The notes under the pieces: generated by a model
The model's database searches: none
What the model was told of the DNA's origin: nothing
Seen by the model: the letters and a program-made list of their open reading frames with translations, nothing else
Position numbers and translations under genes: made by a program
In this document: positions 1 through 53,700 of the stretch, piece after piece
Numbering within the stretch: the stretch's first letter is position 1
How the letters are laid out: each line of letters starts with the position of its first letter
Assembly (NCBI RefSeq): GCF_039555335.1
Contig: NC_092635.1
Span: 51,356,052-51,420,051 of the forward strand
Source of the DNA: Amphiura filiformis
Lineage: Eukaryota; Echinodermata; Ophiuroidea; Amphilepidida; Amphiuridae
Direction of reading: 5' to 3'
DNA: 64,000 bases

Positions 1-592
1 CCTCTGTTAGCCGTATGATGCCTCCGGTTATCTCAATCAAACTAGAGACTGTAAGATCTTGAAGTGCCGTAAGACAATTCACAAGTAAGTTGTAGTCCTT
101 TGCAGATAGTTTAAGCGAGTACCAGATATTGGTGATACTTGTGGCTATATCAGCTTCATCTTGGTGTATGACCATCATGTAGAGTTGCAACACGTTTCGG
201 GCTTGCACAAATGGATCAAAATCATTGAGAAAGGTGTGCAGCTTGCCTGAAAACTCTGCTGGTAGAGACGCTACCGTATGGATCCAATTTCGTAAATTAC
301 CACAACCGGCTGATAAAATGAAGTAGTCGCTTTTCAGAGGATCTTTGTCATCTGGTTCCTGCTTACTACTGCACTCATTTGCCTGAACGTTAAGCATGTC
401 GACTGCTAGGGTATTACCGAAGTAATATGGAACACCTAAAGGAGTACCACGCCGCTGTTGAAAATAGCTCTGTAGGGCTGCACCTTTGGTGCGTACTTCT
501 TGGGTGCGTTCCCGACACTTGTGTTTGTGGTCTTTCCAGTGTGTCTTTTGGCAAACTTTACCGCAGTATGAAGCTTCGTTGCAAGAGGAACA
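1..592 (-). CDS. MYND/DUF4470-like protein, second coding exon (partial, runs off left edge)
   Basis: Open on the minus strand from a clean 3' splice acceptor (pyrimidine-rich ...ctcttgcag) to the window edge, with no stop. The first residues, CSSCNEASYCGKVCQ, then H and C, form the second half of a MYND zinc finger (C-x2-C-x4-YC-x3-C-x7-H-x3-C). A region with 'SAGCGNLRNW' and 'LNDFDPFVQARNVLQLYMM' follows, typical of the DUF4470 domain often paired with MYND fingers. It is closely similar, residue for residue, to the exon at 40837-42687, so the two are paralogues. The missing 3' part should lie to the left of the window. MYND domains bind zinc and usually mediate protein contacts; the function of DUF4470 proteins is unknown. 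Domain assignment is from memory of the families. Confidence 0.85.
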
Positions 593-848
593 CTGCAAGA
601 GATAAAGAATAATAAATATCAGAATATAATCAAAGGATATTCAACATCCAAAAATGTATGAATCTTTCTTGAAAACTACATTTCAGTGTGGCCTTCAAAT
701 TGATGATTCATTAATCGCATATTGGGAAGATATTTTCTGATTTGTTTTATCTTCCATTTTTTTACGTTCTTCGTGATCATCAACATAAGAAAAGGAGCAT
801 AATACTTACACAGCATATCAGTTATACAAAGATTGATGCGTCTCTTAC

Positions 849-2300: not shown

Positions 2301-3526
2301 TGTATAGTGAGCCTAGCCATACCTCATTACACACAGTGCTTGATAATTCAGGTACAGAGTCAATGACTGATTCCGTGTAGGATTCAAAATGAACTGCCAT
2401 CATTCAAGAACGAAGTCATTCAATTTTCAAAATTCAAAAATTCGAAAAGTATATGAAAGCTAATATACAATAATAATCCTAGTTGTTAAACTTCCCCATT
2501 CATTATTACTTTCCTTTGTTTCATTTCGGAGATAATTAATGGCATTTTAGAATGATGTTGCTTCTGTTCCAATGTTGTTGGAAGTTCGAAGAGCTCAAAG
2601 ACGTCCGTTTCCACTCAAGTTTAAGGGTTACCTCTGTATTACACGCTTGACAAATTTTGGAGGGGGTAAACCTCTTTGGTAAACCCCCTGTAAACCCTGA
2701 GGGGGTAAACCCCCTGTGTTATTCTCTGTGGTATCGGTGGATAGCTGTAATGGGTCTCATCATACCGAAATATTAAAAGTACCAACATGGGGGGGGGGGG
2801 GTAAGTCAATTTTTTTGCATGCAAGCGATTCTTGACCCAGATTTTTAAAATTACGCACCCCTCCCAAACAATTCCTGAGTAGTGAGTACGGGCCTGAGCG
2901 GGGTTTAAATATTTATGTTTAAAGGGCATATCTATTGCAAAAACAAGTTTGAATCCATTCGAAGAGAATAATTATTACATTACAAGTTGACACTCGTTGC
3001 AATTTTTATGCGTATTTCTCCTGAAAAAAGAGAAACTGTGTTGGTAAAATTCGGGCTCGTACGGGTCCTTCCCCCCGTTCGAAGCGAAATTAATTTTCAA
3101 GGCAGCGGGTTGAATGACGTAAGTAAATGAAGCGGGCACTATAGGGGAGAGTGGGGTAATCCCGAACACCTTTTCATTTAAGCCTATTACTACACATTAT
3201 AACAACGTAAGATATAATAAACCATACCAATATCAAGAGTGGGATTACCCGTCGTTCTCCTATGTTCACGATAACGCATGAGCCTTGAGCTCTTTTCATT
3301 TTCATTCATGTATAATGAGCGACCTTCAATGGTCAACAAAAGGTTAGCTACTGGCCCATTGAAATTGTTTATTTGTATAATAAATACAATATTGATCACG
3401 CTGAAATTCTAAGCTCAAAATATTGTTTTCATTTTTTAGTCCAAATATTTCTCATAATGTTGATATACATATGCATTGTAATATCATAATTTACTAATAT
3501 AATAAAGAAGCGGCTGGTTTTATCCA
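2301..3526. other. Gene-free stretch, low-complexity G/C tracts
   Basis: No supported gene. It holds repeated 'gggggtaaaccccct' motifs (2660-2720) and a 12-base G run near 2790. Short ORFs here lack codon structure or homology that I can recognise. Confidence 0.6.
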
Positions 3527-4374
3527 TACAGGCTGAGTCAAAAAGAAGTAAACTCATGTTTGAGGGGCTGTAACTCGAGATCGGCAAGGAATCTGCTAAA
3601 AACAAAAATACCACTGGAAAGAGCAAATTCTACACGTCTAAATAAAAACAAGAATTGTTGCAATTGCTTACAGCAAACTAAAGTTATACTAATTTTAATA
3701 CAACTACCCAAATAGGGAAGGCTTTTATTTCAAATCGGCCATGGCCAAAAGGTGTTCCACTTGACCCCACTTGAACAAATATGCACTTTAAAAATAATTG
3801 AAGTGGGTCTTCAGACCCCACCACCACCCTTATTCCCCTATTATACTGAAATATGCACATTTTGTCAGACATTCAAAGAACAGATACATAATGAGAGGAT
3901 ATGTTGCTTCAAAACGTACATTTATCCACCCAGAAGCACTTTTCAAAGAAAATAGTCTTTATACAATACTTTTCTCTGAATTTTATAACACTTTGTATGC
4001 TAAGATGTCCAATATTCACCAATATCACATAAATATTACACATACAAAACTGGTAACTTCTAATAACATAGCCATAACAAAATTAGGTTGCTGTATTATT
4101 ACAGGACTTGTTAAAAAAGGAATTAAATGAATCTGTAGCTGTTTATGATTATGTGACCCATCATGACAAAACCTGTCATACGTCGCCACTTTTGAAGATA
4201 CATCCCAATAAACATCATCATGCTCATATTAGCGGTTTACTGTTTACCTTCAGGAAATCAAAAGTCTTTTCAACCATTTTTGTGTATATATACTGGACCT
4301 TATAAATCATCCTTGTATATTTACCTTTCAACACATTTAATGTCACTGGTGATGCAAATTATTGTCACCTGACA

Positions 4375-5480
4375 CTACACTTGAAAGTCTTTCTTTGATT
4401 CAAATACTGGCATTAAGGCACGTGATCGGCAGATTTGACGAATGTAACCATCCATTGCCTTCTGCCCATATACCTTCTCACTGGCTTCAGACACCAACTT
4501 CATCGCTCTTTCCACTGATTGTGTGTGGCATGGATATTTGGGTACATTTAGTGGGACATTTACTATATCTTTAACCTGCTCATCAGTTAGGTGACAGGCT
4601 CTTTGCGCTAATCTATCATTTTGCTGTTTACAAGCCGATGCTCCAAACTTGATCTGAGGGACTTTGAAAAAGCATACTGTCTCATCTGTTGGGTAGTCTT
4701 CATCAGGAAACGTGAAGCCTTCTGCTTCATCATCACTATATCCCTCTACTTCTACATTGGCAAGCTCGTCTTGTACATCTTCACCTGTGCCGTCAAAATG
4801 CTCTGCAACATTGACCACGTGTTTCCGTGCAGAAAGTATCCATTTAACAGCCTCTTCACGAATGATTTGAGTCAGTGCTGTCAGCTGCCATTGCAAGGAG
4901 GAGGTTTTCTGGGTGAGCAGAAAAGGCATTTCTTTGCATTGACTTCTTGGCTATGTTGCTCAGTGGTTGTCAAGTGTCGCAAAAGTTTTATCATCTTGAA
5001 GAAGTTTCTAGGTGCATCTGTGATAGAAGGATTGCTTTTGATTGTGAACCACATACAATGTAGGGGCGTAGAATTTAACAACAATATTTGCTAATCTTTC
5101 TTGTCAGTCCAACAGAAGGCTCAGGTGTTCTGATATACAAGCATAGAATTCGTTCTGCAGTTGTTAGCCAAAGTGAATGATTGAGACCACCTGGTTCATT
5201 GAGTAGATCTTCTGGCCAGTTACCTGAGATCACAGCCATACAAAACGTGTACAAGTGTTTTTGATCCCACCTTAGATCTTCAACTACTTCATCAGAAAGA
5301 ATGGGGAAGATATGTGCTCTTTGAGTTGACTACCGATTTTTCCACCAAATGAGGTTGGGCCTGTGGTAGGCCCATCATAGTGAGTAAACAACGCTCTGAA
5401 TGGTAACTCATTGCCATGCAAAAGACAAATTTGCCATTGGAATGGTCTACCAAAGACTTTCAAGTGTAGTGTCAGGTGAC
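4375..5480 (-). pseudogene. Transposon-encoded protein, broken
   Basis: Read on the minus strand from about 5470, the translation contains 'WQICLLHGNELPFRALF', 'DGPTTGPTSFGGKIG' and 'WLTTAERILCLYIRTPEPS', then meets a stop near 5095. The downstream open stretch (4929-4375) has 'CHTQSVERAMKLVSEASEK' and ends 'FESKKDF'. These motifs belong to a family of uncharacterised proteins abundant in invertebrate genomes that behaves like a transposon product; I cannot name the family with confidence. A stop and at least one frame change make it a pseudogene. Its position between the inverted arms suggests it was the protein of this element. Confidence 0.6.
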
Positions 5481-5551
5481 AATAATTTTCATCACCAGTG
5501 ACATTAAACGTGTTGAAAGGTAAATATACAAGGATGATTTACAAGGTAGCC

Positions 5552-6050
5552 AAAACGGCTACATCAGTAAAACTCTTTAGGTCACAAATTAAAACAAACT
5601 TTAAAACAAAATGTACACTTAATACCTCTTAGTTTGAGTTACTTCTTAATTTTTTTTGTTTTTTCTCCCTTTTAAAAAAATCGCTTCAAATTAACTGATC
5701 TCTTAGCATTTATACTATATTCACAAAATGTCAGCTTTCTTGTGCGATATACGTGAGTATATGTTATGAAATCTTAATTTGTCTTATACTTATATTCTAC
5801 ATGTTCTTTATTCATCTTTTTTGTTTCTGCTTAGTTCTACATGAATGTATGAAAGAGGGTAGGAGGGTGGGGGATTGTTTATATTTATGTAATTGTTTTT
5901 TATTAGATAAATTAGGAAACTTAGGCTAAGGTTAAGGGGGTGTTTGTTCAGGCCTTTTTGGCCTTCTGAGCATCTCCTCATTCAAATGTGTATGTTTTTG
6001 CTGTTATTTTGTTGTAATTTTGAATGAAATAAAGATTGAAATAGAACACT
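5552..6050 (+). mobile_element. Insertion resembling a LINE 3' UTR
   Basis: This segment interrupts the right arm of the foldback element; the left arm is continuous at the matching place. It contains a hairpin, 'aggcctttttggcct', near 5950 and ends 'gaatgaaataaagattgaaat', as non-LTR retrotransposon tails often do. No coding part is present, as expected for a 5'-truncated insert. Confidence 0.5.
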
Positions 6051-6891
6051 CGGTCCAGTATATATGGTAGGTATATATACACAAAAATGGTTGAAAAAAC
6101 TTTTGATTTCCTGAAGGTAAACAGTAAATCGCTAATATGAGTGGAATATCATTTGTCATATTTGCTAAATTTTTTGTCCATGAAAATATAAAATTTTCCC
6201 GTCAAAATTCCTTTTTTTAATGTAATATGTTTATTGGGATGTATCTTAAAAAGTGTCGACGTATGACGGGTTTTGTCATGATGGGTCACATATAAACAGC
6301 TACAGATTCATTTAATTCCTTTTTAAGTAAGTCCGGTTATAATACATCAACCTAATTTTGTCATGGCTATGTTATTAGAAGTTGCCCAGTTTTGTATGTG
6401 TAATATTTATGCGATATTGGTGAATATTGGACATCTTAGCATACAAAGTGTTATGAAATTCAGAGAAAAGTATTGTATAAAGACTATTTTCTACAGTAGA
6501 TGATTAATTTGTGTTTGAAAAGTGCTTCTAGTTGGATAAAATGTACGTTTTGAAGCAACATGTCCTCTCATTATGTATCTGTTCTTTGAATATCTGACAA
6601 AATGTGCGTATTTCAGTATATAGGGGAATAAGGGCGGTGGTGGGGTCTGAAGACCCACTTCAATTATTTTTTAAAGTGCATATTTGTTCAAGTGGGGTCA
6701 AGTGGAACACCTTTTGGCCATGGCCGATTTGAAATAAAAACCTTCCCTATTTATGACCCGCCCTACTGCACACGGCTGATTGATTTTCATCCATTTCAAT
6801 TTCGACAAATTAGCAAAGTGCTAACAGGATTTATTGTTGAAAAGACAACATTAATTGCTTTTAATTAATATTCAACAAGTCCATGACGGTA

Positions 6892-7251
6892 CTATAGTTT
6901 GTAGGGATACCAATTCAAGGTTTTACGAACGACCCGGCAGAAGCTTGATGGGGAATGTTGGGTAAAGGATTGAGCTGATCTTTGGTCTCGCTGTAACGCA
7001 TGTCTAACTCTAGCAATGTTCACTTGTGATCTAGCAGTTCTTGGTCTGCCTAAATCTGCCGGCTGTCTGTTCCTTAGTGTCCCATGCACATTGAGCTTGT
7101 TCACATTCTTATATACTGCTCCCTTACATGAAACCCGGTTAGCTGTAGGAAATTGGAGACGAAAAAGACGCTGAATTTCAGTGGGACTCTTAGTTTCGTG
7201 ATACGTCGTCGACAGAAACGTGCGCTCCCGTGCGGTAAATTGTGGTGCCAT
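6892..7251 (-). pseudogene. Transposase N-terminal helix-turn-helix (DUF4817-like) fragment
   Basis: This 119-residue ORF opens MAPQFTARERTFLSTTYHE and contains 'IQRLFRLQFP', 'LGRPRTARSQVNIARV' and ends 'LNWYPYKL'. That arrangement (HTH, then RPRTAR linker, then a W-x-PYK end) is characteristic of the N-terminal DNA-binding region of mariner-like transposases of invertebrates. The catalytic DDE domain is absent, so this is a deletion remnant of the element at 3529-9100. Confidence 0.8.
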
Positions 7252-7394
7252 GTTGTCATTCGGCCCGTTTTATTATAGTGTAGTGCAATGAGGTAAAATT
7301 GATATTGAAAAGAGGAATTATTGATCGAAACCACACCTGCCACAGAACTTTATTTGCATTTGAATATCGCGCCTTATCAATACAATAGGTACTA

Positions 7395-8439
7395 CAGCGT
7401 GTCCCAAAAGTAACTTAACATTGTGAATTGGCTATATCTCAAATATTTCCTACTTCATACCAAAATGGAGAACATATTCATATAGATTGATCTTTTAGAA
7501 TTATTTTGATACCAAAAACAGCATTATTGATGACCCTTTGACCTTACTGTGCGACTGTACATATGTGTGTATCAAACCCACAAAAGCAAACTCATGTGTT
7601 CTTTGTTCAAGAACATGAATGATGTGCTTCCCTGAACAATAGAGTTGGTTCACTCACTGTGCACGCTACATTTAGGTATGAACATTCATGGATTACATGG
7701 CTTAGCGTAAGCGTGACCGCTGTTTTAGATTATAATTAGGATATATTGACAATATTAAACTTTACTTTAAAACAGTTGAAGTGAAGATGAATTTCCTATA
7801 GATCAACGGATTCAGGTCGTATGGTTCTTTGCCGAGACAAAGTCGGACAAACTCACTGAAGCAATGTTTAGGGAACAGTTTAATGTAAATTATGCACTAC
7901 CCAGCCGAAATACAATCCAGCAACTAGTGCTGAAATTCCCATCAACTGGATCTGTTCATGATCTACTTCGGGCAGGACGCGGAAGAACAGATCGGCTACA
8001 AACATTGATGTCATACGAAGAGCGGTGGCGAAAAGCCCAAGGCGTACAACTGTTCATCGAATCCTCAGAAAATATCTTAAGTAGTTTCCATATAAAACCC
8101 AGATAAAACAGAAAATGAAGATTACGCATTGAAAACAAACAAACAAACAATCAAACAAACACAGCCAAATTAAACAAAACAGATTTTAAAATGATAACAC
8201 GTTATATCGTGTTCACGTCTCAAATGACGAGACTTATTTTGCGTTTATAAAAGTGGGTTTTACGGTACGGTAGATATCCATTAATTTCATGCCAAAGGGT
8301 CATGAGCACATAGGCATGTTTGGTATCATAACATTTCTAAAAGAATTATCTACATACTGTGCAATTTTTGTAACAACACTATTAACCCAGCGCAAGTTAT
8401 GGCAAATTCACAATGTTAAGGGACTTTTGGGACACCCGG
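7395..8439. mobile_element. Nonautonomous Tc1/mariner-like element, TA target duplication
   Basis: The termini, cagcgtgtcccaaaagt and its inverted partner acttttgggacacccgg, extend to about 33 bp of inverted repeat ('cttaacattgtgaatt'). TA duplications are at 7393-7394 and 8440-8441. It carries a transposase HTH fragment and no DDE domain. It is nested in the 3529-9100 element. Confidence 0.85.
7789..8120 (+). pseudogene. Transposase HTH fragment, frameshifted
   Basis: Reading from 'FPIDQRIQVVWFFAETKS' through 'FREQFNVNYALPSRNTIQQL' and 'GSVHDLLRAGRGRTDR', this is the typical HTH of mariner-like transposases. Near 8050 the frame shifts: the expected 'TVHRILRK' and 'FPYKTQ' continue in another frame and are cut by a stop. 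Same family type as 6892-7251 but a distinct copy. Confidence 0.75.
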
Positions 8440-9102
8440 TACTAGGTAGGCCCCTTCTTCAGTCCAAGAGAACGCCAAATATGGATCAGGAGTATTACAT
8501 AATAATACCCTGCTATGACAATAGCTGCACTAGGTTAATCGTATAATCTCCTTATGTGGTTAGCATGGCTGGGCCAGGAAATCCACAAGGTCAGCCAATG
8601 TATGTACATGTATTCGGTACATGTGCCATATCTTTTACAATGGGTGATAAATTTCTGGTTTGTTTTATTTAAAAACGCAACAGTCGATATTCTAAAGCTT
8701 GGTCCAAATCCAAGAGAAGAACCAACTCTAGTAATTTATGTGGTTTCAAATTATATCGGCCGTTGCCTTTTTGATAGAAATGGTGTTTGTTGATGTGCAC
8801 AGTTTCCCATTAGATCATAACATGATGTTGTGCACCCAAGGTCAAAGGTCTTTTAATCCATATTTGGCGTTGTTCTGGGACTGTACTTGGGAAGTGAAAC
8901 CGTGTGCAGCTACAAAAATGGGTGGTTGTATTCAAATGAGTATAACTTGAGTTTGCTGTGAGCAATTGCAACAATTCTTTTTTTTATTTAGACGTGTAGA
9001 ATTTACTCTTTCCAGTGGAATTTTCATTTTTAGCAGATACCTTACATATCCCAAGTTACAGCCCCTCAAACATGAGTTGACTTCTTTTTGACTCAGCCTG
9101 TA

Positions 9103-9963
9103 TGTTTAAAACCATTAAATTTGTAATACTTGATTAGAGTTTTTTACTGAGAACAACAACAGTAGGCCTATACGTTCTGTGCATTGGGAGTGTTTACAGT
9201 CCATTCTCTCAAAGCGGCCATATTTCATTTTATGACGTCAAACTGTTAGGTAGAAGATTATTATCCTCTTCAGCAATATGATTATTAAACAGTGTTTGAT
9301 GAGATACTTGTCGCACTGTAACTCAGAATACAATTTGCCAACTTTGCGGCCCATTCGTAGTGTCCAGTCACAAATGTGCTAACATACCTTGCCAGTGGTT
9401 AAGCCGAAAGCCGTGTATTAAAGACAAAATAAGACATTTTACATGAAATCGTAATAATATTATTTCTACTACAGTAAACAGATAAGCTACATAATGGATA
9501 TTTGATCGGGGAATTCAACTTTGTCAATACTGCTGTTTTCCTCGTTTTTGCCAAATGTTCATTTCAAAAATACCTAATGACAATTTTAATGACTTCTCCT
9601 TCGCTTTTAAACATCATTTATACATAATTTAATTTTTTTTACACTTTTTCTGGGATCACTGAATGTGCCTTTAATAATATAGACTGCTTGGATATACTCA
9701 CAATGCATCCTAACCTATTACATAATGCATTGATCCAAGATAAACAATTGGTTTCTAATCAAAATGAACTTTGACTTTGGATGACTATAAACTGTCTGCA
9801 GTGAAAACAATAAAGGTATAGGCCTAGTTTATTAATTATTGTATAGCCTGAACAAGAAAGATGAAAATTAAACGAAAATTCATCCGCTCAACATCGATTT
9901 GTCATTAGTCCGGCTACGAACTATTGTTGTATCAGGTTGGGGTTATACGGTTTTGTCAGTTAA
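9103..9963. other. Intergenic, nothing recognised
   Basis: AT-rich sequence with scattered stops. No gene, RNA or clear repeat boundary found. Confidence 0.5.
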
Positions 9964-15379: not shown

Positions 15380-16041
15380 GGGATCTAAAATGAGCGTTTA
15401 TTGCGTTTCGACAGTATTTTTTGTGGGACATGAGAGCACATCAGACCTATCGAATTGCATTCTGAATACGAAGCATGTCTTTCTGATATCAAATAATTTT
15501 CATTTTTGAAAATCACAATATAATACAAATTTTATGACAAATTATAAAAATTTGATATTTTTCAAATTTTGATTTATAACAGTCCTCGAAGTAAATTTTA
15601 TAAATCTAATGACATATTCTTAAAGTGTATGTAACAGGGAGGAAAAGCCGACGGTCAATTGAAAATTTTGACCTTTCATATTGAAGATATGGATTTTTTT
15701 TCCCAAAAGACCAAATTTTTTTTGGTGTTTTGGGAAAAAATCCATATCTTCAATACGAAAGGTCAACATTTTCAATTGATCGTCGGCTTTTCATCCCACC
15801 TACATACACTTTAAGTATAAATCATCAGATTTATAAAGTTTACTTCAAGTACTGTTAAATATCAAAAATATCAATTTTTAATTTTGATTTGCCATAAAAT
15901 GTGTATTAAATTGCGAATTTCAAAAAATCAAAATTATTTGATATCAGAATGACATTCTTCGTATTCAGAACGCAATTCGATATGTCTGATGTGCTCTAAT
16001 GTCCCACAATAAATACTGTCCAAACGTTCATACCCCAGCCC
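15380..16041. mobile_element. 662-bp TTAA foldback MITE, copy A
   Basis: Both halves are inverted copies of one another along almost the whole length; the ends are gggatctaaaatgagcgttt and aacgttcataccccagccc. TTAA precedes it (15376-15379); TTTA, one change, follows. Closely related copies are at 34379-35040 and 52408-53068. Confidence 0.9.
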
Positions 16042-27828: not shown

Positions 27829-29494
27829 CAGTGGACTTCGGTTGTATATATAAATGCGCATATAAATTATAAATGCGCACGTGACCAGATGGCCAGTGCC
27901 ATGTTCGTGTTACCTCACTGTCAATCACTGAAATTGCGACCACAGTTCCAGGTGGTGGCCGCATTGCATTCTCTAAATTCAGTAAATTTTCATCGTCAAC
28001 CGTGTAATTGAATGGGATTATTTTGACATTTTAAAACGCTTGAAATATCACAAAAAAATAGGCCTATGTTGATAAATAATATAAATACAAGCTAAAACCA
28101 TTGGGGTTCGATAATGAACCCCACAAAATTAACCGACTACAGCTCAACTGATCATACTTTTCCTACATTCGACCTTGCATGATTTTTGAGTTGACAGTGT
28201 CATGAAAATAACTATAGATACTTGACAGGCCATTAGTAGCCCAGTTCTGAACCTTTTCATTGATCATTCATAACAATAGGTATCTGATGGATCAGTGAAG
28301 ATAAGAAGGGATTATAATATATCCGTAACCTTGATATTATAGTACATCTCGAGGAAAAAGTGCAATGGACATGTTTTCATTTTATGTTTCAAATATCCCG
28401 CGCATGAAAATTGAGTATTTAACCCAAAATGGAAAATGGAACAATTTATTGAAATCTGTTTTAACAGATTTTTTGACATCTTTTTCTGCACTGTATTATA
28501 CCTAAATTAAGAAATTTGATAAATATTCAAAGAAAATCTAGGTCATCCAAAAAATGTTGATTTTTACACCTTTTGGGGCAAAAAAGGAAAAATAAGCAAA
28601 AATATCAAAATCTGTTTTAACAGCTTCATTCATCAAGTCATAACAAACGGCCTACATGCTTAATTTCTAATAAAATATTGAAATTGTGAAAAATATAGGT
28701 ATTTATTGATTTTCATGTTTTTTCTTGCAAATATGCTAATAATATGCAAATTATGAAATTGCAAAATAAAGTTTCTACATAGCATACATCTTTCAAGTGT
28801 GATGTTCAAAATGACAGACATCAAAAAGAGATTCGATGAAATGTAAAGGTGTAGTAATAATTTTGGCATGGACTGTCTGGTTAGGCAAAGTACGGTAAGT
28901 TGAGCTGTATATTGGAAAATGCCATACGGCCGGGCGGTTTCACAAGTTGCCGGCTCGATCATGTCATCCGCCGCCTGCACAGTCTGACCTTAAAGCCAAT
29001 CATGTCCCCTTTCATACTTTCATGCCGTTGCGACAAGAGGCATGACTTATCAGCCATTCACAAGTCTTGATTGTGTCTGTTTGTCTACAATGCGCGTGTG
29101 TCATGCCGCTCGGCGGCAAGCAGCATGATAGCATGAAACCAGCACTACGTCATAGATATGGCCAATTGGCACGCCCATTTAGCACGGAAATTATGAAATA
29201 TAAGTTTGTAAATCAGCTATATCTAGCTTTTCCGTAGTTAATTTTTTTTTTTTTTCCGTGATGGAAAACGTTAATAAAGAGTTTATCTTTCGGGTCAAGT
29301 TATTTTACCCTTTGCAATCAATGCCACTATTTTGCAAAAGCAATTTTCCTTGCGACCTGTCATTTTCCCCTACTTTTGCACGGGGAGTTTATGTACATCC
29401 GGGTACCTTATATCGTTTAATACGGTATGGCGACTTGTAGATGTCACGTGCGCATTTATATATGCGCATTTATATATACAACCGAAGTCCACTG
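27829..29494. mobile_element. 1.67-kb nonautonomous DNA transposon, 5-bp duplication ACTAA
   Basis: Inverted ends start cagtggacttcggttgtat; about 52-bp arms include 'aaatgcgca' repeats and 'gcgcacgtgac'. ACTAA flanks both ends (27824-27828, 29495-29499). No coding region inside; a 'aaatctgttttaacag' motif occurs twice (28454, 28608). CAGTG ends with 5-bp duplication would fit a hAT5-like element, but the family is inferred. Confidence 0.8.
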
Positions 29495-34378: not shown

Positions 34379-35040
34379 GGGATGGGGTATGAACGTTTGG
34401 ATAGTATTTATTGTGGGAGATGAGAGCACCCCAGAAATATCGAATTGCATTCTGAATACGAAGAATGTCCTTCTGATATCAAATAATTTTGATTTTTTTG
34501 AAATTTGCAATGTAATATACATTAATCATGTTAATGGTAAATAATCAAAAATTGATATTTTTGATATTTAACAGTCCTCGAAGTAAATTTTATAAATCTG
34601 ATGATATGTACTTAAAGTGTATATAGCTGGGATGAAAAGCCGACGATCAATTGAAAATTTTGACCTTTCGTATTGAAGATATGGATTTTTTTTCCCCAAA
34701 ACACCAACAAAATTTAGGTCTTTTTGGGAAAAAATGTATTATCTTCAATATGAAAGGTGAAATTTTTCAATTGATCGTCGGCTTTTCTTCCCAGCTACAT
34801 ACGCTTTAAGTACATATCATTAGATTTTTAAAGCTTACTTCGAGGACTGTTATATATCAACAATTGTTAAAATATCAAATTTTAATAATTTGTCATAAAA
34901 TTTGTGTTGTATCGCGAATTTCAAAAAATGAAAATTATTTGATATCAGGACTTTCTTCGTATTCAGAATGCAGTTCGATATGTCTGATGCGCTCTCATAT
35001 CCCACAAAAAATACTGTCGAAACGCTCATTCCACATCCCT
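34379..35040. mobile_element. 662-bp TTAA foldback MITE, copy B (reverse orientation)
   Basis: TTAA at 34375-34378 and 35041-35044. Its left end (gggatggggtatgaacgttt) corresponds to the right end of copies A and C, so it is inserted in the opposite orientation. More diverged than A and C are from each other. Confidence 0.9.
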
Positions 35041-36538: not shown

Positions 36539-37686
36539 TTAAAGGTGGGTAACCTGATTGACAGCCTCATCCCCAACTTTATCAAAATGCAGATTTTGGT
36601 ATCAGGTGAAAGGTCATATATTTCTCATTAAGGCATTATGCCAAATTGGTATAATTTCCGAAGAAATAGTCAAAAAGCTGTCGAATTAGTCTCAACTGTG
36701 GTATACCACGTTTTTGACTAATTCAGCAGTTTTTTGATGATATCATCGGAAATACACCGATTTGGAACTCCTAATTTCAGTATGTTAATGAGAAAAATAG
36801 GATCGTTCATTTGATATCAATTTATTCCCGAAAATTTATTACATGATCATGATGATTATCATTAATAAAAACACTGTAGACTACCAGTTTTACGCTGTGT
36901 TAGTTGTCAGTAATTCCATAAAGAATTGGTCGCATTTACAAGGAACATTTACATGATCTTTTTGCATGAATGCTTGAGAAGGACAACATTTTATGTTATA
37001 CGTATTAGTTTTAAAGAATTTGATTTTCCAAATATATCAGATCACCTTCCTTTAAACAAAAGGGCAATGTCGGGAGGTATAATGTGCACCCCCATGACTC
37101 TACCAAACCAACTTTTTTAGCCCTAACTTACGCCAGAGTGAACACGTAAAAATACGGCCAATTCAGAAAAAAAATCTTGTCTTTCGTATATCATGTAAAT
37201 TATATAAGGCATACTTTGTACAATTACGATTTGTTGTACCAATTAACTTTTTAATGAACATGTTGTATAGTTTTAAATTGCTTATTTCTTTTTCAGGAGC
37301 ATTTTCACAATCTGAGGAGGTCAAAATCATACAGGGCTTGGAAAAACCCATCAGAAAATATATAGGGCGCGATGCTTGTTTATATGTATACATGGCGATC
37401 AAAATTTTCTTCATTGTTATATCTGATTAATTATTCAAAAATCTTAATTAATGCTAATTAGCTGCTTAAAAGTCATAAAATTACCATAACAACCCAGAAC
37501 GAGCACAATTACACAGACTAACGTCACGGCTGTGTCTTTTTTCTTACAGGTTCTTTCTTTTCTTCTTTCTTTCTTCTTCTTTCTGCCGACCACTACATTT
37601 GCTCTAGCACTTACATGCTTACACCGATTTTGACCTAGCTTGGTCACAACCATCATTGACCATGCCCCTACATGTCATATGAAACT

Positions 37687-39185
37687 CGTGGGGTCAAAGG
37701 TCACGCAGGGGTCATAGGGGTCAAAAACGTGATTTCAACTCAAAATGCTTCTTCTCTCACAGATTACATAGGACAATGACACCACTTGCACACATGCATT
37801 GTTATTATCCAGTGTCTATGGGGTCCTCACAGATTTGGGGTCAAAGGTCATTAAGGGGTCACTTCCGGTATAAAACGAAAAAACTTCAAAAATTTTTATT
37901 TGCTAAGAAAAACATAGGACAGTAACAATATGAATACCTGAGTGGAAGAAGGGCCCAACTCCATCAAAACTGTTTTTGAGATATCAAGAAAAAACTTAAT
38001 ATTTGGAAAAGTTTTATAGACAGAATGTTTTCATCTTCAGGGGACCTTAAATACATGAGCATACAATATTACGTACATTCGAAATTATATATGATGTTTT
38101 CATGGCAACGGTACAGGTCTTAATACGAGCTGGAGTTGGGCCCTTCTTCCACTAATATACTTGAAGTGCCAGTTCCGTGTTAGAAATGGCTACAGAAATT
38201 AGGTAACCACCATTAATTGCACAAATATAACTCATGTAATATGTTTAAAAGAAAGTTTATTGTAGTGAAAAGCATATTTCATGGATGAACAAAATTCCTC
38301 TTTAACCCACTATTTGTGGAAGAAGGGCCCAACTCCATGGAGTTGGGCCTTTCTTCCATGAAAATCATGATTAAGTGTATGTGGAAGACTATTTAAAGAG
38401 TGGATTTTGGCTCATCTTTCACACACAAGGAAGAACAGTCTGCTGGCAATAAAATGCTGGGTCTAACTCAATTTGGTAAAAAATTGGAGTTGGGCCCTTC
38501 TTCCACTCAGGTATTCATATGTTCACACATAAATTGATGTTACCCTGTGTATATGTGGTATTTTTTTATTTAGTGTCAAAGGTCATTAAGGGGCCACTTC
38601 CGGTATAATACGAAATACGTTTAAAATGCTTCTTCTCCCACAAATTACGTAGGACAGTGACACAACTTGCACACATGCATTGTTATTACCCAGTGTCTAT
38701 GGGGTCCTCACAGATTTGGGATCAAAGGTCATTAAAGGGTCACTTCCGGTATAAAACGAAAAACCTTCAAATTTTTTTATTTGCTAAGAAAAACATAGGA
38801 CAGTAACGGTATGTTCACACATGAATTGTGGGTACCCAATTCATATGTGGTATTTTTTTATTTGGGGTCAAATGTCATTAAGGGGTCACTTCCGGTATAA
38901 AACGAAAAACCGTCAAAATTTTTTATTTGCTAAGAAAAACATAGGACAGTAACGGTATGTTCACACATGAATTGTGGGTACCCAATTCATATGTGGTATT
39001 TTTTTTATTTAGGGTCAAATGTCATTAAGGGGTCACTTCCGGTCTGAGACGAAAAACCTTCAAAATGCCCCTTCTGCCACAAGTAACATAGCAAAGTGGT
39101 GCCACATGCACCCATGCATTGACATTAGCCAATGTCTATGGCCGTTTTCATATATTTTGGGGTCAAAGGTCATTAGGGGTAACAA
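37687..39185. repeat. ~146-bp tandem array with DR1-like motif
   Basis: Units start 'ggggtcaaaggtcattaagg' and run through 'cacttccggtataaaacg' and 'gctaagaaaaacatagga'. Starts are near 37687, 37838, 38573, 38720, 38866, 39012 and 39159, so spacing is about 146-150 bp apart from the 587-bp insertion. The first motif is a direct repeat of nuclear-receptor half sites spaced by one base. Confidence 0.85.
37931..38517. mobile_element. 587-bp TA-flanked MITE inserted in the tandem array
   Basis: Perfect inverted ends of 33 bp (tgaatacctgagtggaagaa...) with TA at 37929-37930 and 38518-38519. The motif 'ggaagaagggcccaactcca' recurs internally near 38130 and as a back-to-back palindrome at 38319-38360, so the element seems built from repeated ends. 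Confidence 0.9.
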
Positions 39186-40261
39186 CACGGCTGTGTTCGT
39201 GGGTTAGACCACAGCTTAGTCTAGTTATCTCTTTATTTGACACTTTAGGACTTTACAAGCAACGCCGAAGATCGACTGTTTTACATAGAAGTCTATGGGA
39301 AAAGACATGAAGTGGCCCATAAAGCAGCTCGTTAGTCTAATTAATGAATTGAAATTACACAAACTACTAGCTACTTAATTATTTAATTGCTATATGATTG
39401 CTAAATAATCATGGACTTCAGTGTTTTGTAAATCATCATAAAATTGAAATCAAACTTGTTATCAAACTGTGCTGGACCCTTTCCATACAGTTTGTATGGC
39501 TCCGTGTCCACACCTCCTCCAACCAAGAATCCAGACTCTAATCAACTTTGTTATCTAGAAGCTGACCTGATATATTTGGAAAATCGAATTCTTTAAAATT
39601 TACGTATAACATGAAATGTCGTTCCTTTCAAACATTCATGCAAAAAGAACACGTAAATATTCCTTGTAAATGTGACTAATTCCTTATGGAATTACTGACA
39701 TTTATACTGGTAGTCTACAGAGTTTTTATTAATGATCATGATCATGTAATGAATTGATATCAAAATGAGAGATTCTATTTTTCTAATTAACAAATTGAAA
39801 TTAGGAGTTCCAAATCGGTGTATTTCCGTTGACATCATCAAAAAACTGTTGAATTAGTCTCAAACGTGGTACACCACAGTCCAGACTAATTCGACAGTTT
39901 TTTGACGATTTCTCCGGAAATATACCAATTTGGAACGCCTTTTTTTTAAAAATATGTTAATGAGAAAAATATGAGCTCTCACCTGATACCAAAATCTACA
40001 TTTTGATGGGGTAAAGTGAAGCTGTCAATCAGATTACCCACCTTTAAACAAACAAAACAGAACATTTAATTTTCTCAAGTAAAATGTCAAAACTCCCACA
40101 TATTGGGGAACCCAGCTTCAGATGCATGGCCATTTGCTGTCATCAACATAATGTCAACATGTTTTTTAAGGCTGTAAGAACCTGATTTGCATATCGATTT
40201 ACTCCATCAGGATCCAAGTGTATTTCAAACGGAGTGGCTGATAATAACAAATTAACTTACT

Positions 40262-40836: not shown

Positions 40837-42687
40837 TCAATTGTCAAGACTTTCAGGAATATACCATTCTAGCATTCGCTCCATACCACGAAATAAGTTT
40901 ACTCGCCGGACGTTTCGCCTGTACCGGAATGGAACAACTTTGTTCGGTTCCCCGCGTCTAAAATCCCGCATTTCTAATCCCTCCCTTTGTCTCACTTTCT
41001 GAAAGGGTGGTGGCTTGGCGGTAGCTGCTTCTCCTCCAGACGTCACGGTAGGCATTTCAGCTTCAGCATCTTTCAATCCCGAAAATTCAAAAAGCCTCTG
41101 CATGTGGACGGTGTGCCATACGTCATCACTGACGCCTCCCAGAGATTGGTTGAATGCCATGAACTCGGCCCTCAAGTAGCTGACAAAGTACTTCGTGTAG
41201 TTAAAGTATTCTTGCCAGAAATATGGACCGTGTCCTGCTGTTTTCATCATTTCGAGACTCATGAACAATGGGTTATTGAAAGGTGCTTCTCCTACTATAT
41301 CAATACAGGTATCCTTGATGGCTGCAATGGAACACTCGGCAAGAATTTTAGTACGACTTGCGCGTACAGATACAGGACCTTCTATCTTCGCACATGGGAA
41401 TAGAAGATACCAATTCCAATACTGAGTAACAATCGTCGAGGATTTGTTTTCATGATTCAGGAAAGGTTTCATGACTTTGAGCAATGGTTGTGTACCCGAG
41501 TAGTCGGCAATGTTAGATGTAAAGATGCGATCACATTTGCACGATTCTTGATCAAGTCTTGCAGACAGCTCAAGGCAATTCCATACGATAAAGGAGACGG
41601 TAAGGTGACCAGCTTTCAAGCATCTCATCACTTGTTGTATCTGATCCGTGATGTATCCATGGAACATAACTATCATTGATCTGTGGTAGTGGTTCTTCTT
41701 TACTTTCAGATAATCCCATGAACCAAACGGAGTCAAATCAACACCAATGCAGTATACAAAAGTAACCTTCTTCGGAGATGCCAATATCTTCATGGCCTCA
41801 ATCGCATCATAACGGTCATAAGGAAACATATAGCCAGTTAACGTTGGATTGTCGTATTGAAGATCAACTCGTTTAGATCCAAATGGCTGGAAATTTCCAG
41901 TTGCAAGGTAATCATTGTAAGATGGAACGAAATCGCCGGGAAGCTCCTTCTTGTATACATCAATACCCTCTGCGGCATTTGGTGAGTTTCTGAACACATC
42001 CCGTCTTTGTTCTTGAAGATCAATGTAGTTGGGGTGACCTTTGCGGCATTCCAGATTGAGCCATGATTGCCATACCTCTCGCATAGGAGCCATATCTGCC
42101 TCTGTAAGTTGAATAACGCCTCCAGTGACTTCACGCAAATTACTGGATGTGAGATCTTGAAGTGTGGTAAGACAAGCCACAACCAGGTTATAGTCTTTCT
42201 CCGATATTTTCAGCGAGTACCAGATATTGGTGATACTTGTAGCTATATTAGCTTCATCTTGATAAATGACCATCATATAAAGTTGTAACACGTTTCGGGC
42301 TTGCACAAACGGATCGAAATCATTGAGAACGGTGTGCAGCTTGCCTGAAAACTCGGCCGGTAAAGACGCCACCGTATGGGCCCAATTTCGTAAATTACCA
42401 CAACCGGCGGACAAAATGGCAAAGTTGCTCTTCAAAGGATCTCTGTTTTCGGGTTTCGGCTTCATTTTGCATTCATTTGCGTGAAGGTTGAGCATGTCGA
42501 TCGCCAGCGCATTACCGAAGTAATATGGAACTAAACCAGGGAAACATTGCTGCTGGAAATAGCTCTGAAGGGCTGCTCCTTTCGTGCGTATTTCGTGGGC
42601 GCGTTCCCGACACTTGTGTTTGTGGTCTTTCCATTGTGCCTTTTGACAAACTTTACCACAGTATGAAGCTTCGTTGCACGAGGTACA
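40837..42687 (-). CDS. MYND/DUF4470-like protein, large 3' exon
   Basis: A 616-codon open exon from a phase-0 acceptor (ctcttgcag at 42690-42688) to TGA (40839-40837). Residues 1-26 are the second half of a MYND finger (CTSCNEASYCGKVCQ, H, C). Residues ~50-180 hold 'FAILSAGCGNLRNWAHTV' and 'LNDFDPFVQARNVLQLYMM', typical of DUF4470; the remainder is unassigned and ends with an arginine-rich stretch (FRYRRNVRRVNLFRG). It is closely similar to the exon at 1-592 and gives the likely length of that gene's missing part. The expected 5' exon (first MYND and the first cysteine pair of the second) was not found to the right up to 64 kb; it may lie outside the window or be lost. The exon is intact with no stop. 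Function unknown. Confidence 0.85.
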   Translation of the reverse strand, partial: CTSCNEASYCGKVCQKAQWKDHKHKCRERAHEIRTKGAALQSYFQQQCFPGLVPYYFGNALAIDMLNLHANECKMKPKPENRDPLKSNFAILSAGCGNLRNWAHTVASLPAEFSGKLHTVLNDFDPFVQARNVLQLYMMVIYQDEANIATSITNIWYSLKISEKDYNLVVACLTTLQDLTSSNLREVTGGVIQLTEADMAPMREVWQSWLNLECRKGHPNYIDLQEQRRDVFRNSPNAAEGIDVYKKELPGDFVPSYNDYLATGNFQPFGSKRVDLQYDNPTLTGYMFPYDRYDAIEAMKILASPKKVTFVYCIGVDLTPFGSWDYLKVKKNHYHRSMIVMFHGYITDQIQQVMRCLKAGHLTVSFIVWNCLELSARLDQESCKCDRIFTSNIADYSGTQPLLKVMKPFLNHENKSSTIVTQYWNWYLLFPCAKIEGPVSVRASRTKILAECSIAAIKDTCIDIVGEAPFNNPLFMSLEMMKTAGHGPYFWQEYFNYTKYFVSYLRAEFMAFNQSLGGVSDDVWHTVHMQRLFEFSGLKDAEAEMPTVTSGGEAATAKPPPFQKVRQREGLEMRDFRRGEPNKVVPFRYRRNVRRVNLFRGMERMLEWYIPESLDN

Positions 42688-43234
42688 CTGCAAGAGATTA
42701 TGAGAAATAAATACAGGAATTAGTTATGTTTCGGATATTTCATGACAAAACAAAACAAAATAATGTCGTTTTAGAAGGCGTTGTTTCTGCATTTTTTTTT
42801 TATTCTTTACGTTTACGATCATCACCAATGCTTGTAATTAACTATTAACTACTGCTAACGTCACTTCGGCCTGAAATAATACAGCCTGGATGCCACCGCA
42901 CATGCCGAAGGGGCGGGCAACACAATAGGGCACTTCCGAAAAAACACCCTTTCTTGTAAATTTTAGATACCAAATACAAAGAAACATTTCATTGCATAAT
43001 CAACAAGAACTTTAAAAAGACAACGCAGTTTATATTAAATCAAATTAATATTAAATTAAATGGCTAAGCTAAATAAGGTGTTAACTCTGTAGCTAAGAGG
43101 TTAAGTATACTAATCATAATACTAATTACGGCGTGTCCGTCCGTACGTCCGTCCGTCCGCGCGCTATCGCGTTCGCGTTCGCGCGGTGCACAATCGCGTG
43201 CGCTATCGCGTAGTATCAACGCGGAGTACCGACG
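42688..43234. other. Upstream flank or intron of the MYND gene; CpG-rich (ccgt)n patch
   Basis: 43134-43215 contains gtccgtccgtccgcgcgc and cgttcgcgttcgcgcgg, strikingly CpG-rich in AT-rich surroundings. No exon recognised. Confidence 0.5.
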
Positions 43235-45552
43235 CACAGTGGGCCAGGGCGGAATCAAAGTGTGCCAAAATTCAAAAGTGGTGAAAGTGGAATTTCCTAT
43301 TTTTTTCAGTTGTTTAAGAAAGAAAACATTCTGAAGTATATTGTTTGGCCCATAATTTATGTTTCGATGGATTCCATAAGTGTCGTTCAGTCATGAATTT
43401 GACCCAAAAGTGCCATATTTTCTCTTAAAATGGTAAAAGTGTGAATTTTGAAAACAACTATAATGTAACGTTAGTAAATGAGAAACTGTTGTCTTGCCAT
43501 TGTGCATATGTTATACCTAATAGTAGTCAAACCAGATAATTAAAGTCAAAATATAAATAATTGTAATAACCAGGAGTAATGAGGGCGCTAATTTGGTGAA
43601 ATACGGTAAAAATATGCATTTTTGGGAAAAAATAGAAATTTAGTTTGGATTCCTGTCGATTCCTGTACAAAGATTCATTTTATAATTTGCAGACAAGTCT
43701 TAGAACCATGTTGATGGCAATTTTGTTTGCAAATATTTGCCAGACTGCATTCCAGGGTCCATCCAATGTACCCTATTTGCTCACTTTTCAGCTGATTTTG
43801 ATGGATAGCGTACGGGTTTATCGTGTCATGTGCATAGCGCCCTCATATTGCTTACATACCCTGGGGAATTTGCGGTTTTCACTACAACTATGCCCTAAGA
43901 AATAGCATAAGGTCTCAATATTTTAACACATCATTATTCAAGATAATTGAAGCAAAATAATATCATCATTATCAAGGACATTATTTATGCTGCTTAAATC
44001 CATCATACCATGTATGTATGGATGTTTTGCGCATTAACCATAGAATTGAACTTCCAGATAACATTTAAATAGGCCTAGGGGGCCTATACATTCAATGTGA
44101 AAACTCTTTGCTAAAACACACACAGTTTGGATTAGTTTTGTGACTTTTTTAATCATGATAATGATATCTTAAAACAATTTTATGAAAGTAGCTCGATATC
44201 ACAGTTTCATGAAAAACCCTGAGCTCTGTGCTGTTATTAAGGACATGTGATGAAGCTGTGGTCGTTTTTTTTTTAAATAACGAATATCAGGGAATAAGTG
44301 TAGGCCTATTCTAAACTCATTAGCCTTTTGATTGAGACGTACATTCATATATTACGTGCACATTTTTATTCTGCTTTGAACATTCATACAAATTATAGAA
44401 TTTATGAAAGAAATTCAAGACACAAAAACCCCATGGTCTGCCAATTTTAAACATGACAACTAGATTTGGTATTACGTCTACTTTAAAAAAAATCAAATTA
44501 TCATTTCAGTATTGGGCATAGCGAACGACAAAATTACATGCCCTAACTGTATCATCACTGATCATTTATTTATATTGCAGAATTACAAATTGAATCAGAT
44601 TACATCATTTTAGTGTCGTTTGTTGACGTATCATTGACGTATTTGCTTGCCTTTTGGGGTGCCTTTTCGCCAATTTTGGTAAAGCGATGGATGGGTTTTT
44701 ACCACAGACGAAAGCGCCCAGTATCATTGTGTATTTTGAGAAACATATTGGTAAAAGCACCCAATTTGGGCAAAATGGGTTGCTTTTTCAAGGAAATTGG
44801 AATATTGATTGGTTGCAAATTAGGGGCAAAATTATAAGACAATGGCGACGTTTTGAAGTCCGGCAGGAAGAATGGCATGCAAATTTTGGAAGAGAAATCA
44901 ACCCCCCCATCATTTAGTTTGACTGGTTGTTTGTTTCCTTATATTAAACAATTCAAATATCAGCATTTTATTGATGTCATACGTACTAAAAAATGCTGTC
45001 AGTGAATTTTGCAGCCCGTATGATGTATAACCTTTGAATATGCTATTTGATAATACTTTTCCAATCGGACATTTGAATTCCTGTTGTAAGAGTAATAAGC
45101 CAATCAAGGCTTTGTATTTTAATGACGTCATATGCCTTGGAAAATGGCTCTATTGGATTCCGGAGTCCTTAAAACCCCTGATTTGGAAGTTTTTATAATA
45201 ATTCCTACACAGCCATTTGAATAACTGTGGGAGGAATAATTGACCAATCACATTTCAGCATATTAATGACGTCATACGCTTTCCAAAATGTCATCATTGA
45301 AAGTCGCACCCCTTGGAACCCCTATTTTGCTTTTTAAATTAAATTTTTAACATATATCATTTGAAATACTGTTGTAAAAATAATCGACCAATCACCGTTC
45401 AGCATTTTGATGACGTCATACATTTTTTAAAATGCCTCCATTGAATTCTGCAGCCTCAAAAAACCCTAAAATATTCATTTTACCGTGTTTGTAAACGTTT
45501 GATTGTCCGTTTATAATTTTGGCACACTTTGAGGCGAATCTGGCCCACTGTG
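43235..45552. mobile_element. Transib/ProtoRAG-like nonautonomous element with CACAGTG ends and 5-bp duplication
   Basis: Both ends begin CACAGTGGGCCAG, flanked by CGACG at 43230-43234 and 45553-45557. The inverted repeats have two conserved blocks: positions 1-13, then seven unlike bases, then 'tcaaagtgtgccaaaatt'. CACAGTG is exactly the heptamer of V(D)J recombination signals, and 5-bp GC-rich duplications are typical of Transib and ProtoRAG. The 2318-bp interior has no recognisable transposase, so it would be mobilised in trans. An EnSpm-like origin is the main alternative (its duplications are usually 2-4 bp). Confidence 0.75.
44972..45418. repeat. ~147-bp tandem units with CCAAT and CRE-like motifs
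   Basis: Inside the Transib-like element, units contain 'ccaatcA' followed about 20 bp later by 'tgacgtca' at 45123, 45267 and 45411 (a variant, tgatgtca, at 44972), spaced 151, 144 and 144 bp. Confidence 0.75.
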
Positions 45553-45820
45553 CGACGGGGGCAGTGCGTGCATCGGAAAGCATTAGGCCTACAGTATGAC
45601 TAACAGGTGCACCTCATCGGACCAATAGGCCTACTTTCAACACATTTCAATACAGAACGTGTGCATTGGCCTATTTCAGCAGAACATGACTATTCCCGGG
45701 GTCCTCAAGAATGGTTAACATTATGATAAAAATAATCTGTTAATAAAATAATCAGGTAAGGCCTATAACCCGTAATATTAGGCCTTATTGGGTTGAAATT
45801 TCTCCCGATTGTAAGTTTCA

Positions 45821-52269: not shown

Positions 52270-53700
52270 GTGTTTAAGGCTCAAGTCTATACAATTGAAA
52301 ACTTTTAGACTTAAACTTGAATGCAAAATTATAATCACTTGCTGACTTGCGAGTTATCTTTAGTGTCCCCACTTGTTATGATAAACATGTTTTATTAAAC
52401 ATGTTAAGGGATCTAAAATGAGCGTTTATTGCGTTTCGACAGTATTTTTGTGGGACATGAGAGCACCTCAGACCTATCGAATTGCATTCTGAATACGAAG
52501 CATGTCTTTCTGATATCAAATAATTTTCATTTTTTGAAAATTACAATATAATACAAATTTTATGACAAATTATAAAAATTTGATATTTTTCAAATTTTTG
52601 ATATATAACAGTCCTCGAAGTAAATTATATAAATCTAATGATATATTCTTAAAGTGTATGTAGCAGGAAGGAAAAGCCGACGGTCAATTGAAAATTTTGA
52701 CCTTTCATATTAAAGATATGGATTTTTCCCAAAAAGACCTAATTTTTTTTTTTGTGTTTTGGGAAAAAAAATCCATATCTTTAATACGAAAGGTCGAAAT
52801 TTTCAATTGATCGTCGGCTTTTCATCCCACCTACATACACTTTAAGTATAAATCATCAGATTTATAAAGTTTACTTCAAGTACTGTTAAATATCAAAAAT
52901 ATCAATTTTAATGATTTGCCATAAAATGTGTATTAAATTGCGAATTTCAAAAAATCAAAATTATTTGATATCAGAATGACATTCTTCGTATTCAGAATGC
53001 AATTCGATATGTCTGATGTGCTCTAATGTCCCAAAATAAATACTGTCCAAACGTTCATACCCCAGCCCTTAAGCCATTCCATTAATTTCAATTAAGCCTG
53101 CAAGGCTTGATAATCTTTACTTCAATTCTTATGTTATGCATGAATTCGAAGTTACCTCATTTCGTGAACATTTTGACATTTATTGTGATATTTCTGTATA
53201 CACAATTGTAAGCTTTTAGACTTAAACTTGGAATTCACAATTATAATCACTTGCTGACTTGCGAGTTATTATCTTATCCATGTCCCCATTTGTTATGATA
53301 AACATGTTTTATTAAACATGTTAAGCCATTAAATTAAGTTCAATTAAGCCTGCAAGGCTTGATAATATTTACTTCAATTCTTATGTTATGCATGAATTCG
53401 AAGTTACCTCATTTTGTGAACATTTGACATTTATTGTGATATTTCTGTACATACGATTGAAAGTTTTTATGGACTTAAACTTGAGTTCACATTTATAATC
53501 ACTTGCTGACTTGCGAGTTATTATCTTATCCGTGTACCCACTTGTTATGATAAACATGTTTTATTAAACATGTTAAGCCATTAAATTCAATTCAATTAAG
53601 CCTGCAAGGCTTGATTATATTTACTTCAATTCTTATATTGTTATGCATGAATTCGAAGTGAACATTTGACATTTATTATGATATTTCTGTTTCAAATGAT
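52270..53700. repeat. ~252-bp satellite interrupted by MITE copy C
   Basis: Units begin 'aagccatt' at 53071, 53323 and 53575 (period 252) and contain 'caattaagcctgcaaggctt' and 'cttgctgacttgcgagttat'. A partial unit precedes the MITE (52280-52407), so the MITE landed at its 'atgttaa' boundary. The third unit decays after about 120 bp. Confidence 0.9.
52408..53068. mobile_element. 661-bp TTAA foldback MITE, copy C
   Basis: TTAA duplicated at 52404-52407 and 53069-53072. Close to copy A in sequence and orientation. Confidence 0.9.

Follow-up and report, generated by a model that had tools for sequence, protein, structure and literature searches.

The segment at positions 43235–45552 of the window, the 64,000-nucleotide stretch of Amphiura filiformis DNA analyzed here, raises the question of what kind of mobile element it represents and which type of enzyme would move it. 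The original prediction had placed a non-autonomous, Transib/ProtoRAG-like element at these coordinates, and this extent proved exact (2,318 bp, no strand assigned, delimited by terminal inverted repeats and a flanking duplication). The left terminal inverted repeat (43235–43272, plus strand) and the right one (45515–45552, minus strand) are each conserved over 38 bp, not the 45 bp proposed earlier, and share one layout: a 13-nt block that contains the heptamer CACAGTG, a 7-nt variable spacer, and an 18-nt block. Read inward, the left end is CACAGTGGGCCAG GGCGGAA TCAAAGTGTGCCAAAATT, and the right end, as its reverse complement, is CACAGTGGGCCAG ATTCGCC TCAAAGTGTGCCAAAATT. The two ends are identical at 32 of 38 positions; the 13-nt block CACAGTGGGCCAG and the 18-nt block TCAAAGTGTGCCAAAATT match perfectly, and all six mismatches fall inside the spacer (hypergeometric P = 2.5e-6). 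The predicted arrangement of two conserved blocks around seven variable bases was thus recovered as 13 + 7 + 18 nt. CACAGTG opens both ends, as had also been claimed, giving CAC...GTG termini; it is identical to the heptamer of V(D)J recombination signal sequences (RSS) at 7/7 positions and appears as the RSS heptamer in the Transib literature (PMC8289069). When compared in direct orientation, the spacers themselves (43248–43254 and 45533–45539) resemble each other as GGCGGAA and GGCGAAT (5/7, against 1/7 inverted), the pattern expected if one of them had been inverted; this likeness is weak and was judged by eye.

Each end is bordered by the pentamer CGACG (43230–43234 on the left and 45553–45557 on the right, neither assigned to a strand), in agreement with the predicted duplication. 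When the flanks were compared over k = 1–12, they matched only at k = 2 (CG) and k = 5 (CGACG), the former because CGACG both begins and ends in CG; target duplications of 3 or 4 bp were rejected, as the flanks mismatch at these lengths. Between the two 120-bp flanks, 15 of 13,456 5-mer pairs are identical (1.1e-3). If only CG had been duplicated, the 5-bp identity would be fortuitous, while CGACG implies CG, and a duplication length of 5 bp is therefore strongly preferred.

These comparisons bear on whether the locus could instead be a non-autonomous EnSpm/CACTA (CMC) element with a 2-bp CG duplication and an accidental 5-bp identity. The match at k = 2 would suit such an element; CAC...GTG ends with 2-bp duplications are described for CMC elements, one of them from a tunicate (PMC6004678), and animal CACTA-related elements with CCC ends are reported to have 2-bp repeats (7/14 Schistosoma copies; PMC1636069). 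However, the 5-bp identity, with other bases in another register, would then have to arise independently by chance, with a probability of about 1e-3, and also happen to hit CGNCG, and the flanks provide no match for a 3- or 4-bp duplication. In a survey of Helicoverpa MITEs, CACTA elements are listed with duplications of 2–4 bp and Transib elements with 5 bp (PMC9033116), a length also described elsewhere as typical for Transibs (PMC4411706). We consider an EnSpm/CACTA origin distinctly unlikely.

A length of 5 bp alone is not diagnostic, because the window contains an element of another type with a duplication of the same length. This 1,666-bp element (27829–29494) has 36-bp perfect inverted repeats (CAGTGGACTTCGG...), CAGTG ends, and the 5-bp duplication ACTAA, and is possibly a non-autonomous transposon of the hAT5 type. 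The ends of hAT elements usually start with CAG. Families of hAT elements with 5-bp duplications exist (PMC12730594), and together with the possible hAT5-type neighbor they raise the prospect that the element at 43235–45552 is also hAT5-type, which its CAC...GTG ends and CGNCG target make very improbable.

The target CGACG fits the CGNCG type, in the one insertion available. CGNCG is given as an insertion preference for a moth Transib (PMC4735498), and a table row on CGNCG in another article (PMC5704228) cites the same work, leaving one source only. It is a preference and not a strict rule, since Hztransib carries the duplication GCTCG (PMC1852546) and TransibSU-2_PM carries CCAGG (PMC4411706). 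The motif occurs 82 times in the window and twice in 43001–43234, one of the two being the duplication itself. A CpG-dense stretch adjoins the insertion (observed/expected 2.38 at 43001–43200).

That only a single copy is visible could suggest a chance inverted repeat and not a mobile element. The window was scanned for CAC...GTG pairs 60–8000 bp apart; among the 69,220 pairs, 95 had identical 5-bp flanks, one of the 95 being of the CGNCG type, and the top inner match, 32/38, was that of this element. By comparison, none of 40 first-order Markov windows exceeded an inner match of 23/38, and they contained on average 0.03 CGNCG-flanked pairs each. In a second scan of CAC...GTG pairs, combining identical 5-bp flanks with 13/20 matching end positions, the element was the sole hit in the window. 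The ends and the duplication lie far beyond chance, and a fortuitous origin is scarcely credible. With up to 2 mismatches allowed, the window has no occurrence of the outer 13-mer beyond the two ends, and the hits from blastn of the element against the window (E up to 1e-3) were confined to the element: the full copy, the internal repeats, and the terminal sequences. Exact end patterns gave 0 matches in viral, bacterial, and archaeal contig collections, which is little informative.

Inside the ends, the interior (43273–44940, no strand assigned) contains no recognizable transposase, and the GC content of the element interior is 0.336 vs 0.369 for the window. The right quarter is occupied by degenerate direct repeats (44941–45468, no strand assigned), with 3–4 units at a spacing of ~144 bp and 61–74% identity to the reference unit; TGACGTCA is present in three of the units (45123, 45267, and 45411). 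A possible nested small element was also noted at 43579–43846, where a 12-bp perfect inverted repeat (ATGAGGGCGCTA) spans 268 bp. Among the 52 ORFs of at least 30 aa that overlap the element, the 10 longest stop-to-stop ORFs lying wholly inside it were scanned against Pfam (up to E 1) and showed no transposase or RAG1 family, which supports the prediction that the element is non-autonomous. Internal ORFs gave hits to AC_N (E 0.0035), PMEI (0.19), and BAP (0.11) that were below the Pfam cut-offs and were taken as chance. For the window, the 100 longest of 143 ORFs (at least 70 aa) gave matches to 24 families at E values of 0.1 or less, with no RAG1, RAG-like, or Transib family on the list, in a scan that shorter or spliced fragments would escape.

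We propose that the element belongs to the Transib superfamily as a non-autonomous cut-and-paste DNA transposon mobilized in trans, a provisional assignment with a probability of roughly 0.8. The Transib part of the predicted label agrees with the CAC...GTG ends, the RSS heptamer, the CGNCG-type 5-bp duplication, and the scanned ORFs without transposase, and the element would be an ordinary member of the known Transib family, which is related to the enzyme that rearranges antibody genes. Against the assignment stands that only one copy was seen, and no transposase, empty site, or related copy. CA...TG ends are described as common to most of the EnSpm-Mirage-Chapaev-Transib group, and a ProtoRAG-like label drawn from the heptamer alone was dropped, since this motif cannot tell the members of the CAC...GTG group apart. 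By a 5-bp duplication of the CGNCG type, CACTA can be set apart from Transib/RAG, whereas Transib and RAG-like elements cannot be distinguished from each other; GC-rich 5-bp targets are reported to be favored by RAG and ProtoRAG too (PMC8289069), and both target features separate Transib from RAG-like enzymes poorly.

A non-autonomous RAG-like (ProtoRAG/TransibSU) element, mobilized by a RAG1L–RAG2L pair, would accordingly share the exact RSS heptamer, the GC-rich 5-bp duplication, and the bipartite ends. Non-autonomous RAGL elements are reported from several deuterostomes (PMC7204232), and heptamer-like ends and 5-bp duplications are found across TransibSU, ProtoRAG, and RAGL elements (CCAGG in the case of TransibSU-2_PM). 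The starfish TransibSU-1 is described with 13-bp identical terminal inverted repeats (PMC4411706), so that a 13-bp outer block is common to our element, TransibSU-1_PM, and AanRAGL. The ends of AanRAGL are likewise bipartite, with 13-bp and 10-bp elements separated by 4/13-bp spacers (PMC9435367), compared with 13 + 7 + 18 here. The details of the ends, however, point away from this group. RAG-like ends are described as having an A-rich stretch at positions 8–10 (PMC7204232), whereas both ends read GGC there, and either end fits the protostome RAGL consensus at 7/17 positions. ProtoRAG ends consist of CACTATG followed by TR5 27/31 bp further in (PMC8289069); the outer 7-mer of the element agrees with this TR1 heptamer at 5/7 positions, and neither CACTATG nor the 27/31 asymmetry is seen. 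The TR5 sequence GCCATCTTG is matched at 0/9 positions at spacer 27 and at 3/9 and 2/9 at spacer 31, its best matches being off-spacing (5/9 at spacer 22 in the left end and 6/9 at spacer 1 in the right). TransibSU, ProtoRAG, and RAGL elements also encode RAG1L and RAG2L, and no RAG family appeared among the 100 longest window ORFs, although a non-autonomous copy would lack such genes. The RAG-like part of the original label is thus not borne out, and we regard an origin from this group as quite unlikely.

The symmetry of the ends was compared with published Transibs. Symmetric ends are stated for most Transib families (PMC8289069), and Transib ends aligned in a published figure have, according to its legend, heptamer-like and nonamer-like parts set 20–22 bp apart in a symmetric arrangement (PMC8355894). 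In a division of Transibs into two subgroups, all Subgroup I ends are asymmetric and Subgroup II includes both kinds (PMC9435367); the symmetric ends of the element would therefore fit Subgroup II. Symmetry is also shared by some RAGL elements, as symmetric RAG-like ends from two protostomes are given in a legend (PMC8355894). An RSS pair of the 12/23 type was ruled out, as both ends are alike and the nonamer is weak: the RSS nonamer ACAAAAACC is matched at 6/9 (left) and 5/9 (right) positions at spacer 23 and at 4/9 and 3/9 at spacer 12, and the right end also reaches 5/9 at five other spacers. At spacer 22, both ends carry GCCAAAATT, a weak 5/9 match to the RSS nonamer; the heptamer, 22 bp, and GCCAAAATT add up to 38 bp, equal to the conserved end length. 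Low nonamer similarity has a precedent in Hztransib, which is said to lack it (PMC8289069).

In each end, the outer 11-mer has an imperfect repeat at +21 (CACAGTGGGCC/CAAAGTGTGCC), with 9/11 identities (0.0065 when multiplied by 27 for the number of offsets). This repetition and the confinement of the mismatches to the spacer suggest, at the sequence level, two contact sites per end. Under the Transib assignment, both 38-bp ends would be recognized, through their conserved blocks, by a DDE transposase of the RAG1-core type whose gene would lie elsewhere, the outer block providing CACAGTG as the cleavage heptamer and the inner block, ending in AAAATT, lying two helical turns further in. The enzyme would cut at the CAC ends, probably with hairpin-type excision chemistry, and the 3' ends would then be joined to a CGNCG target, with a stagger of 5 bp between its two strands; repair of the gaps would leave CGACG on each side. 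Other copies with these ends would be expected to exist. A search of literature full text for CACAGTGGGCC gave no transposon paper among the matches, as judged by title and the start of the abstract.

The closest counterparts are non-autonomous Transib members, namely the Helicoverpa MITEs and Anopheles Transib-N1 to N3, which share the 5-bp duplication, inverted repeats, heptamer-like ends, and lack of a transposase. They differ in that the Helicoverpa Transib MITEs are listed at 75–564 bp, in a survey limited to 800 bp (PMC9033116), compared with 2,318 bp here, and the ends of Transib-N1 to N3 are listed as 12/23-asymmetric (PMC8355894) and those of the element are symmetric. Hztransib from Helicoverpa zea shares the 5-bp duplication, the inverted repeats, and insertion in the 5' flank of a gene, but is 3518 bp long, encodes a 489-aa protein, and is flanked by GCTCG instead of CGACG (PMC1852546).

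The gene next to the element is represented by an exon encoding a MYND finger and DUF4470 (40837–42723, minus strand; Pfam PF14737, E 2.3e-16, and PF01753, E 1e-7), and the element sits ~0.5 kb to its 5' side. Location of Hztransib in the CYP6B8 promoter region offers a precedent for such 5'-flank insertion (PMC1852546). A pyrimidine-rich stretch and AG, read by eye, precede the exon, and a simple pattern search yielded no upstream exon. A paralogue lies at 2–640 (minus strand) with 78% protein identity and 82.7% identity over a 618-column DNA alignment; the likeness ends near the exon start. The paralogue yields no empty site, because the alignment is restricted to 42099–42713 of the 40837–42723 gene.

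The element adds one well-preserved Transib-type insertion, with a target of the CGNCG type and a heptamer identical to that of the RSS, and can serve to probe its genome for the corresponding transposase. Alone, it leaves the picture of RAG origins unchanged. The exact vertebrate RSS heptamer and the two-site layout, with the 11-mer repeated at 21 bp, raise the unlikely prospect that the ends are substrates of a living Transib/RAG1-like enzyme and may also be cut by vertebrate RAG at the heptamer; if so, these would be naturally occurring ends, from a source other than the immune system, open to cleavage by vertebrate RAG.

The window contains further repeats. An element of ~3.5 kb at 36539–40047, with long imperfect inverted arms (~460–500 bp) and ends that begin with TTAA, is possibly a TTAA-targeting transposon. 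Three related palindromic repeats of 527–565 bp (TTCTGAATACGAAG...) with long inverted arms lie at 15433–15997, 34446–34972, and 52475–53009. Nested long inverted arms at 3525–9104 (for example, 72 nt exact at 3723–3794) possibly represent a rearranged transposon cluster, and the hexamer GGCCTA occurs 35 times in the whole window, compared with 7.4 expected from base composition.
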